DNA from: Streptomyces sp. H39-S7
GTDB lineage: Bacteria; Actinomycetota; Actinomycetes; Streptomycetales; Streptomycetaceae
Length of the DNA stretch: 64,000 nt
NCBI RefSeq assembly: GCF_027158205.1
Contig: NZ_JAPVLU010000012.1
Location: 66,864-130,863, forward strand
Reading direction: 5' to 3'
Shown here: positions 23,141-28,934 of the stretch, in pieces
How the letters are laid out: every line of letters starts with the position of its first letter
Position numbering within the stretch: position 1 is the first letter of the stretch
The notes under the pieces: generated by a model
What the model saw: only the letters and a program-made list of their open reading frames with translations
What the model was told of the DNA's origin: nothing
Databases searched by the model: none
Translations under genes and position numbers: made by a program

Positions 23141-23788
23141 ATGCAGATGAAGCACCGCGGCCGGGTTCGTACCGGTGCAATAGCCGTTGCCGCTTTCGCG
23201 GCACTTGCCGGAACGGGCGTTCTCGCCACTCCGGCATCGGCGCACACGCCGGTCTGGACGGTCACCTGCGACAAGGTCACCGTTGACCTGACGCAGTACA
23301 ACAGCCGGGTCGAGAACACCGTCACGATCACCGTGGACGACAAGGACCTGCTGGCCACCACCAGCTTCAAGGCCAAGTTCCACAAGGTGCTGGACCTGCC
23401 GAAGCACGGCAAGGACGTGAAGGTGCACCTCGTCGTCAAGGCGGGCGACACCAGCGGCAAGCACAACTTCGACAAGGACGAGACCAAGACGGTCGCGCCC
23501 TGCCCGGGTGACGAGGACAAGCCGCCCACCACGACGCCGACCACTCCGGCGACCACGACGCCGACCACGACTCCGGGTACGCCGACCACCCCGGCCACCA
23601 CGCCTTCGGCCTCGCCGACGTCGAGCGCCCCGGTCGTCTCGCCGAGCCAGTCCACCCCGCCGGCCAACCTGGCCGAGACCGGTGGCTCCAGCTCCACGCC
23701 GATCATCGGCGGCATCGCCGCGGCCGTCGTGGCCGCCGGTGCGGGTCTGATCCTCATGAACCGCAAGCGCCGCTCGTCGCACAGCTGA
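23141..23788 (+). CDS. LAETG-anchored surface protein
   Basis: A 215-residue cell-wall protein. Signal peptide about 1-34 (ends ASAHT); a compact beta-rich domain at about 35-125 with two Cys (TVTCDKV and VAPCPGD) that can pair; a Thr/Pro/Ser linker at 128-175. L177-A-E-T-G181 is followed by a hydrophobic helix and a basic tail (NRKRRSSHS). This is a complete sortase signal of the LAXTG type used by class E sortases in streptomycetes, so the protein would be linked to peptidoglycan. Binding partner unknown. ATG 23141 has GGAGG 4 nt away; ATG 23147 (spacing 10) is also possible. A strong terminator follows. Confidence 0.9.
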   Translation: MQMKHRGRVRTGAIAVAAFAALAGTGVLATPASAHTPVWTVTCDKVTVDLTQYNSRVENTVTITVDDKDLLATTSFKAKFHKVLDLPKHGKDVKVHLVVKAGDTSGKHNFDKDETKTVAPCPGDEDKPPTTTPTTPATTTPTTTPGTPTTPATTPSASPTSSAPVVSPSQSTPPANLAETGGSSSTPIIGGIAAAVVAAGAGLILMNRKRRSSHS

Positions 23789-24533: not shown

Positions 24534-27176
24534 ATGGATCTTCGACTGCCGCGGCGCAAGCGGTTGCTCACCGGCGCGGTGGTGCTCGCCCTGCTCGCCG
24601 GCGCCGGGACCTGGGCGGTGGCGTCGTCGGCCGCCTCGTCCGGCGCCGCCGCCGTGCACCAGCAGGAGGCGATGCTCCCCGGGCAGGGAGAGCGGCTCGA
24701 CACGTCGTTCTTCACCGCCGGCGGGACGCAGCGCCGGCCCGCCGTGCTGCTCGGACACGGCTTCGGCGGCAGCAAGGACGACGTGCGCGAGCAGGCCGAG
24801 GACCTGGCGCGGCACGGCTACGCCGTGCTCACCTGGTCGGCCCGCGGCTTCGGGAAGTCCACCGGCACCATCGGCCTGAACGCCTCGGACGGCGAGGTCG
24901 CCGACGTCAGCCGGCTCGTCGACTGGCTCGCCCAACGGCCCGAGGTGCGGCTCGACGCGGCGGGCGACCCCCGCGTCGGAGTCTCCGGGGCGTCGTACGG
25001 CGGCGCGGTCTCGCTGCTCGCCGCCGGGTACGACCGGCGGATCGACGCCATCGCCCCGGAGATCACCTACTGGAACCTCGCCGACTCGCTCTTCCCGGGC
25101 GACGTCTACAAGAAGCTCTGGGCCGGGATCTTCTTCTCCAGCGGCGCGCGGACCGGCGACGCGGCCTGCGGGCGCTTCACCCCGGCCGTCTGCGCGATGT
25201 ACCAGCGGGTCGCCGTCGCCGGGAAGCCCGACGCCGAAGCCCGCGCCATGCTGGACAAGCTCAGCCCCTCCGCCGTCGCCGACCGCATCAAGGTGCCGAC
25301 CCTGATCGTCCAGGGCCAGAGCGACTCGCTCTTCCCGCTCGGCCAGGCCGACGCCATGGCGAAGGCGATCGCGGCCAACGGCGCGCCCGTCGCCGTCGAC
25401 TGGATCTCCGGGGGCCACGACGGCGGCGACCTGGAGACCGGCCGGGTACAGGGCCGCGTCACCGCCTGGTTCGACCACTACCTCAAGGGCGACACCTCGG
25501 CCGGCACCGGCCCGGCCTTCCGGGTGACCCGCACCGGCGGGGTGAACTCCACCGACGGCCGCGCCGTGTTGCGCGGCGCGAGCGCGGACCGCTACCCGGG
25601 ACTGACCGGCACCTCGTCCCGCAGGGTCCCGCTCGCCGGCGGCGAGCAGACCGTCACCAACCCCGCGGGCGGCAGTCCGCCGGCCATCTCCTCGCTCCCG
25701 GGCATCGGCGGCCTCTCCCAGCTGTCCAGCCTCGGCGCCGGCGTCTCGCTGGACTTCCCCGGCCAGTCGGCGCGCTTCGACTCAGGTCCGCTCGGCTCCG
25801 GGATCCGCGTCACCGGCTCGCCCACCGTCAGCGTGCGCGTCAGGGCCTCCACGGACGACGCCGTGCTCTTCGCCAAGCTCTACGACGTCTCCGCGGACGG
25901 CCGCCAGTCGCTGCCCGCACAACTCGTCACCCCGGTACGCGTCGACGGCGCGGCCGGCGGGAAGACCGTGGAGCTGAGGCTGCCCGCCATCGACCACCAG
26001 TTCGCGGCCGGCCACCGGTTGCGGCTGGTCCTGGCCACCACCGACCTGGCCTACGCGTCACCGGCCCCGGCCGCCACGTACACCGTCTCGCTCGCCGCTC
26101 CCGCGCTGACGCTGCCGACCGACCCCGGGGTCGCCACCGCGGCCGCCGGACTGCCGTGGTGGACCTGGGGCATGCCGCTCGGCGCGGCCGTCGTCGCCGC
26201 GCTGCTGCTGCTCATCGGCCGCCGCCGGGTGCGGACGCCGGCCCCCGACCCGGCGCTGTCCGGGGTACCGCTGCAGATCACCGACCTGAGCAAGAAGTAC
26301 GCCAAGTCCGCCGACCGGTACGCCGTCCGCGACCTGACGTTCCGGGTCGAACGCGGCCAGGTGCTCGGCCTGCTCGGCCCCAACGGCGCGGGCAAGACCA
26401 CCACCCTGCGGATGCTGATGGGGCTGATCCAGCCCGACGGCGGCGAGGTCCGGGTCTTCGGCGAGGCCATCAGGCCCGGTGCGCCGGTGCTCTCCCGCGT
26501 CGGCTCGTTCGTCGAGGGCGCGGGCTTCCTGCCGCACCTGTCGGGGCGCGCCAACCTCGACCTGTACTGGCAGGCGACCGGACGGCCCGCGCAGGACGCG
26601 CACTTCGACGAGGCCCTGGAGATCGCCGGCCTCGGCGACGCGCTGCGCCGGGCGGTCCGCACCTACTCGCAGGGCATGCGCCAGCGGCTCGCCATCGCGC
26701 AGGCGATGCTCGGCATGCCGGACCTGCTGATCCTGGACGAGCCGACCAACGGCCTCGACCCGCCGCAGATCCGCGAGATGCGCGAGGTCCTCATCCGGTA
26801 CGCGGCCGAGGGCCGGACCGTGATCGTCTCCAGCCATCTGCTCGCCGAGGTCGAGCAGAGCTGTACCCACCTCGTCGTGATGGACCGCGGACGGCTGATC
26901 ACCGCCGGCCCGGTCGGCCAGATCACCGGTTCCGCCGACACCCTGCTCGTCGGCGTGGAGGGCGAACTGCCGGAAGGCGTCCTGGAGAAGGTCGCCGAGC
27001 TGCCCGGCCTGTCGGGAGCGGTCCGCGGTGACGACGGCCTGCTCATCGCGCTGGACGGTATGACCGTGCCGCAACTCCTCGTCGAACTCGTCCGGCTGGA
27101 CGTCCCGGTCACCCGGGTCGGACCGCAGCGCCGCCTGGAGGACGCCTTCCTCACCCTCATCGGAGGCAACGCATGA
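24534..27176 (+). CDS. Fusion: exported X-Pro peptidase-type hydrolase + membrane helix + ABC ATPase
   Basis: An 880-residue composite protein in one unbroken frame. Residues 8-30 form a signal or anchor helix. About 50-310 is an S15/CocE-type alpha/beta hydrolase with nucleophile S154 (GVSGASYGGA), D264 (VQGQSDSLFP) and H295 (SGGHDGG). About 330-535 is the S15 C-terminal jelly-roll. About 540-562 is a second membrane helix, then about 575-800 a cytoplasmic ABC ATPase: Walker A LLGPNGAGKTTTL near 613-625, signature YSQGMRQRLA, Walker B LLILDEPTNGLD and switch HLLAEV. The hydrolase would face outside and the ATPase inside. Its stop overlaps the permease start (ATGA), so a complete exporter is encoded. 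TAGGAT 6 nt before ATG could be a leaderless -10 or supply AGGA as a ribosome site. Confidence 0.9.
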   Translation: MDLRLPRRKRLLTGAVVLALLAGAGTWAVASSAASSGAAAVHQQEAMLPGQGERLDTSFFTAGGTQRRPAVLLGHGFGGSKDDVREQAEDLARHGYAVLTWSARGFGKSTGTIGLNASDGEVADVSRLVDWLAQRPEVRLDAAGDPRVGVSGASYGGAVSLLAAGYDRRIDAIAPEITYWNLADSLFPGDVYKKLWAGIFFSSGARTGDAACGRFTPAVCAMYQRVAVAGKPDAEARAMLDKLSPSAVADRIKVPTLIVQGQSDSLFPLGQADAMAKAIAANGAPVAVDWISGGHDGGDLETGRVQGRVTAWFDHYLKGDTSAGTGPAFRVTRTGGVNSTDGRAVLRGASADRYPGLTGTSSRRVPLAGGEQTVTNPAGGSPPAISSLPGIGGLSQLSSLGAGVSLDFPGQSARFDSGPLGSGIRVTGSPTVSVRVRASTDDAVLFAKLYDVSADGRQSLPAQLVTPVRVDGAAGGKTVELRLPAIDHQFAAGHRLRLVLATTDLAYASPAPAATYTVSLAAPALTLPTDPGVATAAAGLPWWTWGMPLGAAVVAALLLLIGRRRVRTPAPDPALSGVPLQITDLSKKYAKSADRYAVRDLTFRVERGQVLGLLGPNGAGKTTTLRMLMGLIQPDGGEVRVFGEAIRPGAPVLSRVGSFVEGAGFLPHLSGRANLDLYWQATGRPAQDAHFDEALEIAGLGDALRRAVRTYSQGMRQRLAIAQAMLGMPDLLILDEPTNGLDPPQIREMREVLIRYAAEGRTVIVSSHLLAEVEQSCTHLVVMDRGRLITAGPVGQITGSADTLLVGVEGELPEGVLEKVAELPGLSGAVRGDDGLLIALDGMTVPQLLVELVRLDVPVTRVGPQRRLEDAFLTLIGGNA

Positions 27177-28060
27177 GCGCCACCGCCCCGGCACCTTCCC
27201 CGGCCCCCGCCACCTCCACGGCCCCGGGCTACCACCCGCGCCGGACCCTGCCGCTGCGGGTGGAGGCCATGCGGCAGTTGCGGCGGCGGCGCACCCTCGT
27301 CGTCGGGGCCGTGCTGGCCGCACTGCCCTTCATCCTCATCGCGGCCTTCGCCATCGGCGGCGAGCCCGACGGCAGCGACAACCGCAACGGGCCCTCGCTC
27401 ATCGACACCGCGACCTCCTCCGGCGCCAACTTCGCCGCCACCTGCCTCTTCGTCTCGGCGGGCTTCCTGCTGGTGGTGCCGGTGGCGCTGTTCTGCGGCG
27501 ACACCATCGCCTCGGAGGCCAGCTGGTCCTCGCTGCGCTACCTGCTGGCCGCGCCGGTGCCCCGCACGCGGCTGCTGACCAGCAAGTTCCTGGTGGCGCT
27601 CGGCTTCAGCGCGGCGGCGATGCTCCTGCTGCCCGTCGTCGCGCTCGCGGCGGGCACCGTCGCCTACGGCTGGGGCGATCTGCAGATCCCCACCGGCGGG
27701 TCGCTGCCGTCCAGTACCGCGCTGGCGCGGCTGGGCATCGTCGTCGCGTTCATCTTCGTCAGCCAACTGGTCACCGCGGCGCTCGCCTTCTGGCTCTCGA
27801 CGATCACCGACGCGCCGCTCGGAGCGGTCGGAGGGGCCGTCGGGCTCACCATCGTCGGCAACGTCCTGGACGCCGTCACCGCCCTGGGATCCTGGCGCGA
27901 CCTGCTTCCCGCGCACTGGCAGTACTCCTGGGCCGACGCCCTCCAGCCGCACCTCGAGTGGTCCGGCATGATCCAGGGCGCGGCGGTCTCCGTCTCCTAC
28001 GCCCTGGTGCTGACCGCCCTCGCCTTCCGCGGGTTCCGGACGAAGGACGTCGTCTCCTGA
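27173..28060 (+). CDS. ABC-2 type transporter permease
   Basis: A 295-residue membrane protein with a cytoplasmic Pro/Ala N-terminus and six hydrophobic segments (about 43-65, 92-115, 135-160, 183-205, 212-230, 263-283). Segments such as FCGDTIASEASWSSLRYLL and PRTRLLTSKFLVAL match the ABC-2 permease pattern (E-x-x-x-G-T/S-R-Y-L-L). It overlaps the fusion ATPase gene by 4 bp and is the channel partner of that ATPase, the pair forming an exporter with an attached extracellular hydrolase. Substrate unknown; peptides or an antibiotic-like compound are possible. Confidence 0.88.
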   Translation: MSATAPAPSPAPATSTAPGYHPRRTLPLRVEAMRQLRRRRTLVVGAVLAALPFILIAAFAIGGEPDGSDNRNGPSLIDTATSSGANFAATCLFVSAGFLLVVPVALFCGDTIASEASWSSLRYLLAAPVPRTRLLTSKFLVALGFSAAAMLLLPVVALAAGTVAYGWGDLQIPTGGSLPSSTALARLGIVVAFIFVSQLVTAALAFWLSTITDAPLGAVGGAVGLTIVGNVLDAVTALGSWRDLLPAHWQYSWADALQPHLEWSGMIQGAAVSVSYALVLTALAFRGFRTKDVVS

Positions 28061-28142: not shown

Positions 28143-28328
28143 ATGTCCAATCGTGCGAAACTCGCCGTCGGCGGCGTGGGCATAGGGATCGTCCTGATGA
28201 TTCTGGGCGTCCCCTTCTGGCTCGCACTGCTGGTGATCATCGGTGTGCCGGTGGCCGCGTACCTGACACTCGATCCTTCCCAGCGGCGTCGCCTCAAGAG
28301 GATCTCCCGCCGGCAAATAGGCCGCTGA
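28143..28328 (+). CDS. Small membrane protein (61 aa), unknown
   Basis: A 61-residue protein; ATG 28143 has GGAGG 6 nt upstream. One long hydrophobic region (about 9-45: VGGVGIGIVLMILGVPFW, then LALLVIIGVPVAAYLTL) can form two short helices. A basic tail follows (RRRLKRISRRQIGR). It lies 82 bp after the ABC permease and may belong to that transcript. No function can be read from it. Confidence 0.68.
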   Translation: MSNRAKLAVGGVGIGIVLMILGVPFWLALLVIIGVPVAAYLTLDPSQRRRLKRISRRQIGR

Positions 28329-28391: not shown

Positions 28392-28934
28392 ATGGGCGGG
28401 ACGGTCACGGCGGTCAGCCGCAGCTCGGAGCACCACTTCACCAAGGCGAACGAGGACAGCGTCAGGCTGCTCGCCGGTCTCGGTGTCGAAGGCGACGCCC
28501 ACCTGGGAGTGACGGTCCAGCACCGTTCCCGCGTCGCCCAGGACCCGACGCAGCCCAACCTGCGCCAGGTCCACCTCATCCACGCGGAGCTCTTCGACGA
28601 GCTGCGGGCGGCCGGCTACGACGTCACCCCCGGTGACCTGGGCGAGAACGTCACCACCCGAGACGTGGACCTGCTCGGCCTGCCGGTCGGTGCCCGCGTG
28701 CGGCTCGGCGCGGAGGCGGTCGTCGAGATCACCGGCCTGCGCAATCCCTGCCTGCAGATCGACCGCTTCCGATCCGGCCTGCTCAAGGAGGTCGTCTCGC
28801 GTGACGCGGCCGGCAAACTGATCCGCAGGGCCGGGATCATGGGCGTCGTGCTGTCCGAGGGCGAGGTGCGCCCCGGCGACCCGATCGAGGTCGAACTGCC
28901 CGAGGGCCCGCACCGGCCGCTGGAGCGTGTCTGA
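28392..28934 (+). CDS. MOSC-domain protein
   Basis: A 180-residue single MOSC domain. Core features: GVEGDAHLG (about 31-39), RQVHLIHAELFDEL, PGDLGENVTTRDVDLL (about 80-95) and the conserved Cys C120 in RNPCLQID. MOSC domains bind a molybdenum or sulfur-carrying cofactor; stand-alone ones act in molybdopterin metabolism or detoxify N-hydroxylated bases (YiiM type). The reaction here is not determined. The following NADAR gene starts 1 bp after its stop, so the two are translated as a unit. Confidence 0.9.
   Translation: MGGTVTAVSRSSEHHFTKANEDSVRLLAGLGVEGDAHLGVTVQHRSRVAQDPTQPNLRQVHLIHAELFDELRAAGYDVTPGDLGENVTTRDVDLLGLPVGARVRLGAEAVVEITGLRNPCLQIDRFRSGLLKEVVSRDAAGKLIRRAGIMGVVLSEGEVRPGDPIEVELPEGPHRPLERV

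Follow-up and report, generated by a model that had tools for sequence, protein, structure and literature searches.

The locus comprises two overlapping genes on the plus strand of the window (the whole 64,000-nucleotide stretch of Streptomyces sp. H39-S7 DNA that was analysed). The first (24534–27176, +) encodes an 880-amino-acid protein that carries a signal or anchor segment, a putative ecto-hydrolase, a transmembrane helix and an ABC ATPase in a single frame. The second (27173–28060, +) encodes a 295-amino-acid ABC-2 permease with approximately six hydrophobic segments, assigned by hydropathy and by matches above the Pfam cut-off to ABC2_membrane_4 and ABC2_membrane_2. The fusion gene and the permease gene share the 4 bp ATGA, as the sequence-only reading of this DNA had stated. 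A simple scan of the locus detected no promoter- or terminator-like sites.

The predicted layout of the fusion protein begins with a hydrophobic segment (residues 11–34; 24564–24635, +), identified by hydropathy and immediately preceded by RRKR, which may be an export signal or an uncleaved anchor. The alpha/beta-hydrolase core that follows (residues ~41–318; 24654–25487, +) was defined by fold matches and by Pfam Peptidase_S15 at residues 67–272, above cut-off, and contains the catalytic residues Ser154 within GASYGG (24993–24995, +), Asp264 (25323–25325, +) and His295 (25416–25418, +). A beta-sandwich or jelly-roll domain (residues ~361–530; 25614–26123, +) matched PepX_C above cut-off in two stretches, one of them at 409–458. 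A second membrane helix (residues 542–563, then RRRVR; 26157–26222, +) was evident as a hydropathy peak both in the window and in most diverse homologues. The C-terminal ABC ATPase domain (residues 577–880; 26262–27173, +), matched by ABC_tran at residues 599–739 above cut-off, has a complete set of motifs: Walker A (615–622), signature (711–715), Walker B (732–742) and H-loop (766–770).

The single uninterrupted frame proposed from the sequence was examined in 135 homologous loci, which together with the window gave an alignment of 136 sequences, a few genes having been fetched twice. The fused frame was identical in architecture in all 135 other loci. The proposed S154-D264-H295 triad was invariant (136/136 for each residue), as was Walker A, and the signature, Walker B and H-loop were invariant at nearly all positions. 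In every one of the 134 loci that extended far enough the permease gene lay on the same strand, and an NTGA overlap was present in 133 of them. A stop codon or frameshift near 26150–26270, which the earlier reading had named as evidence against the fusion, is contradicted by the homologues, and the in-frame start codons of the linker were not accompanied by Shine-Dalgarno-like sequence. In genomes of 45–55% GC the fusion was a clean frame of ~815–840 amino acids, which argues against a spurious frame because long spurious frames are rare at that composition. Frameshift, misassembly, accidental read-through and a GC-driven spurious frame were thus ruled out by the homologues, including those of low-GC genomes, and the fusion is, as judged from its relatives, genuine and not an assembly or sequencing artefact.

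The taxonomic spread of the S15-plus-ABC architecture, a check suggested by the sequence-only reading, was broad within the phylum. Sampling of 200 Streptomycetaceae turned up the complete protein in 180, and its hydrolase part was matched in 33 of 35 congeners. Among 297 genomes of the class 76 were matched, 26 inside Streptomycetaceae and 50 outside; three of the 50 were matches to a single domain, leaving the fusion in ~47 of 269 genomes elsewhere in the class. Further classes of Actinomycetota also had the fusion, as did Tsukamurella and Nonomuraea, and a search of a plasmid collection returned exclusively actinobacterial matches. In a family of 1–2 Mb genomes the distribution was patchy (15/81), and essentiality in streamlined genomes was rejected on this count. 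By these searches the fusion and its permease are near-core in Streptomycetaceae and accessory elsewhere.

No third gene was generally present beside the pair across the loci compared. The permease was present in all 134 loci that extended to it and no other neighbour was conserved, so the two genes appear to form a self-contained module. A gene for a YfbK-like von Willebrand-A lipoprotein lay close downstream of the permease in ~28 Streptomyces loci, about one third (e.g. L141:8676–10274), and was absent from the window; it is a possible extra partner in that Streptomyces subgroup. Inositol-catabolism genes and amino-acid permease genes were found upstream in subsets of loci, and an FAD glycerol-3-phosphate dehydrogenase gene adjoined the fusion operon in two genomes of one genus (L226 and L229), a weak hint of glycerolipid metabolism. 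Each of these was rejected as a conserved third partner, being confined to subsets. Biosynthetic or resistance genes were not conserved beside the operon, and the gene neighbours yielded no metabolic clue.

The predicted topology placed the hydrolase outside the cell and the ATPase inside, as had been proposed, and is supported by three independent lines of evidence. The first helix has Arg/Lys-rich sequence on its N-terminal side and the second helix has it on its C-terminal side. Cys212 and Cys220 (25167–25193, +), the sole cysteines of the ectodomain, are predicted to form a disulfide; each was kept in 133 of 136 sequences, the ectodomain had exactly two cysteines in 132, and the three sequences with none indicate that the two are lost together, a disulfide pattern. 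Relatives begin with export signals ending in AxA (e.g. ...PMPANA-AE and ...SPSASA-EA), and two have lipobox-like motifs (FAAC in L166, LGAC in L227). The first helix of the window contains a possible cleavage motif, AVA at residues 28–30, and may be either cleaved there or retained as an anchor. The second helix must span the membrane because the ATPase needs to be placed inside.

The enzyme had been described as peptidase-like, with X-Pro substrates suggested for assay, and this part of the earlier reading was not borne out. The hydrolase and jelly-roll domains were usable in the AlphaFold model; the ATPase was poorly modelled, mostly below pLDDT 60. The best match by Foldseek and VIA-align was the lipase PaL (8yzn; Foldseek E 2.8e-27; Z 26.0, rmsd 4.5, 430 residues aligned), followed in the Foldseek ranking by cocaine esterase and alpha-amino-acid ester hydrolases. 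The X-Pro peptidases 1lns and 6nff came far lower, at Foldseek ranks 25 and 27, as distant relations and not the nearest ones, and were absent from the sequence matches at E up to 0.01; sequence and profile searches agreed that lipases and esterases are nearest. By contrast, L218, a further S15 protein encoded by this genome, was clearly nearer X-Pro peptidases. Membership of the Peptidase_S15/CocE-NonD superfamily is evident from the core with its triad and the PepX_C jelly-roll, both Pfam families being matched by 20 of 20 diverse homologues; given the esterase and lipase structures nearest to the fused enzyme and the placement of L218, 'S15' serves here as the name of a fold family. All sequences had HGF in the loop before the nucleophile, and almost all had HGFG there, a motif that is usual in lipases and esterases. 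On these sequence and model comparisons an esterase or lipase is a better guess than a peptidase. Like the fused enzyme, PaL and cocaine esterase (1ju3) have an alpha/beta fold, an SY nucleophile elbow, a Ser-Asp-His triad and a C-terminal jelly-roll, but they are stand-alone enzymes, whereas the fused hydrolase, with its invariant HGF loop, appears membrane-tethered and is carried on an ABC ATPase. Related hydrolases also exist unfused.

The nearest solved structures to the ATPase were those of the lipid exporters ABCA3, ABCA4, ABCA7 and ABCA1, with NosF and Rv1218c, a mycobacterial pump, next in order. The nearest NCBIfam model, drrA (TIGR01188), scored 173 bits against a cut-off of 312, below the level for assignment. 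The predicted structure of the permease gave a weak match to the mycobacterial Rv1217c-Rv1218c pump and nothing significant in the search. Pairing with an ABC-2 permease, in an overlapping operon in 133 of 134 loci, identifies the system as an ABC-2 (type V) exporter. DrrAB, Rv1217c-Rv1218c and ABCA-type exporters share the ATPase subfamily and an ABC-2 permease in two-gene operons; unlike the fusion, their ATPase chains bear no extracellular enzyme. Matches to PADLOC defence models were rejected as generic ATPase similarity. In both the ATPase and the permease trees all fusions fell in one strongly supported clade together with three unfused pairs, L200, L201 and L202, the nearest unfused relatives (~50% ATPase identity); row L205, labelled unfused, is in fact a fusion truncated where its contig stops. 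The flanking sequence examined of L200–L202 contained no S15 gene, and these pairs may be ancestral intermediates or may have lost the hydrolase secondarily. Unfused paralogous pairs fell outside the fusion clade. One of these, L208 of the same genome (C62:125301–127161; 49% and 33% identity for ATPase and permease), grouped with similar unfused pairs from other Streptomycetaceae.

The reading to which we give an even chance is that of an ecto-esterase tied covalently to an ABC-2 transporter, cutting amphipathic esters delivered at the outer face. The complex would resemble a DrrAB- or ABCA-like ABC-2 transporter, probably of two fusion chains and two permeases, each ATPase subunit bearing an extracellular serine esterase or lipase on a transmembrane tether. 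As ATP drives the movement of the permease, an amphipathic substrate of ester or amide type, whether a lipid, an acylated metabolite or an antibiotic, would be flipped or lifted into the outer leaflet and cut there by the tethered hydrolase, and the fusion would hold the enzyme at the exit in 1:1 stoichiometry. Sequence comparisons show the features on which this model draws: the single chain, the intact triad and ATPase motifs, the obligate permease, the export signals of relatives and the cysteine pair. Both activities appear co-selected because the fusion and the catalytic and ATPase residues are kept from Streptomyces to other classes. A preference for lipids is suggested by the distant similarity of the nucleotide-binding domain and of the hydrolase. 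Counting against the model, the three close ATPase/permease relatives without a hydrolase imply that the transporter can work without it. The more specific claim, that a one-chain, ATP-coupled surface esterase, its hydrolase driven or fed by the attached ABC motor, acts on one particular lipid of the envelope, or on one particular metabolite that is exported, and represents an undescribed class of enzyme-transporter, is held more tentatively.

The closest functional precedent is YbbAP-TesA of E. coli, described in 2025. There the periplasmic esterase TesA is the binding partner of an ABC transporter, whose proposed role is to pull out hydrophobic molecules so that they can be hydrolysed (PMC12646458). 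On the present reading the fusion would be a covalent counterpart built on an ABC-2 transporter, and both systems would combine an ABC transporter with an extracytoplasmic serine esterase and substrate delivery from the membrane. YbbAP-TesA, however, has a type VII permease (FtsX/MacB-type) and a separate GDSL enzyme, whereas the permease here matched only ABC-2 families and the enzyme is an alpha/beta hydrolase on the ATPase chain; the permease and enzyme families being unrelated, the likeness is one of function and not of membership. By this analogy the system would fit the fetching of lipid-like substrates for the enzyme at least as well as the cutting of cargo at the exit, which the sequence-only reading had put forward. 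PCAT (C39) transporters likewise have a protease or hydrolase domain in one chain with an ABC ATPase, but theirs is a cytoplasmic cysteine peptidase on a full TMD-NBD chain, in contrast to a predicted extracellular serine hydrolase with one or two helices per chain; the fusion had no C39 match and just two hydrophobic segments. Myxococcus Q1D520 (TC 3.A.1.145.1), in which an M1 aminopeptidase and an ABC-2 permease form one protein (PMC3924187), also joins part of an ABC-2 transporter to a hydrolase, but the enzyme is of a different family and sits on a 13-TM permease, not on the ATPase. In the largely open-access literature searched, no account was found of an ABC ATPase that carries an S15/CocE-type hydrolase in the same chain. 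The fusion thus appears undescribed, in keeping with the earlier view of it as an under-described system.

Among other explanations, xenobiotic or antibiotic defence is the foremost, though an unlikely one: the pump would expel a toxic ester or amide and the tethered hydrolase would inactivate it at the surface and block re-entry, or would activate an exported prodrug. The DrrA-like ATPase family, the resemblance that both ATPase and permease bear to the Rv1217c-Rv1218c efflux pump, a superfamily that includes cocaine esterase and the beta-lactam acylating amino-acid ester hydrolases, and soil actinomycetes as hosts are all consistent with such a role, whereas near-core status in Streptomycetaceae, presence even in small 1.3-Mb genomes and the lack of conserved biosynthetic or resistance genes alongside argue against it. 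Mechanotransmission, in which ATP hydrolysis would open or position the ecto-hydrolase without any cargo in the manner of FtsEX, with envelope material as the target, is improbable. Extracytoplasmic enzymes driven by ABC systems have precedents (PMC11491553), and the nucleotide-binding domain here is linked physically to the enzyme through a single membrane helix; those known cases, however, have type VII permeases (FtsX/MacB-like), not ABC-2.

Slightly less probable again is a passenger role for the hydrolase, in which a surface esterase would use a convenient membrane protein as its anchor and be uncoupled from transport. Such a role would suit the three near relatives without a hydrolase and the unfused hydrolases, but >15 families retain the fusion together with the catalytic residues of both domains, and no locus was found in which the fused hydrolase had lost its triad. 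Trimming of an exported peptide by the enzyme as an X-Pro dipeptidyl peptidase, finally, is very improbable: the Pfam names S15 and PepX_C, both above cut-off, speak for it, and the structural ranking, the sequence matches and the position of L218 speak against it.

The system has a single chain spanning the membrane, with the enzyme outside and the presumed motor inside, in ~90% of the Streptomycetaceae sampled and, with a scattered distribution, elsewhere in the phylum, and the control of an extracellular enzyme by ATP becomes testable by point mutants in one protein. Were the reading true, it would extend to Gram-positive bacteria the idea, taken from YbbAP-TesA, of an ABC transporter that feeds an esterase and, the parts being unrelated, would suggest convergent evolution. 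It would also assign a function to a gene that in Tsukamurella is now annotated only as 'alpha/beta fold hydrolase'.

Three further genes lie near the pair in the window. At 23141–23788 (+) is encoded a 215-amino-acid secreted protein without a Pfam match, whose C-terminus (LAETG, a hydrophobic helix and RKRR) resembles that of an LAxTG-type sortase substrate. A 61-amino-acid predicted membrane protein (28143–28328, +) is encoded ~80 bp 3' of the permease gene and is followed by a MOSC-domain protein at 28392–28934.
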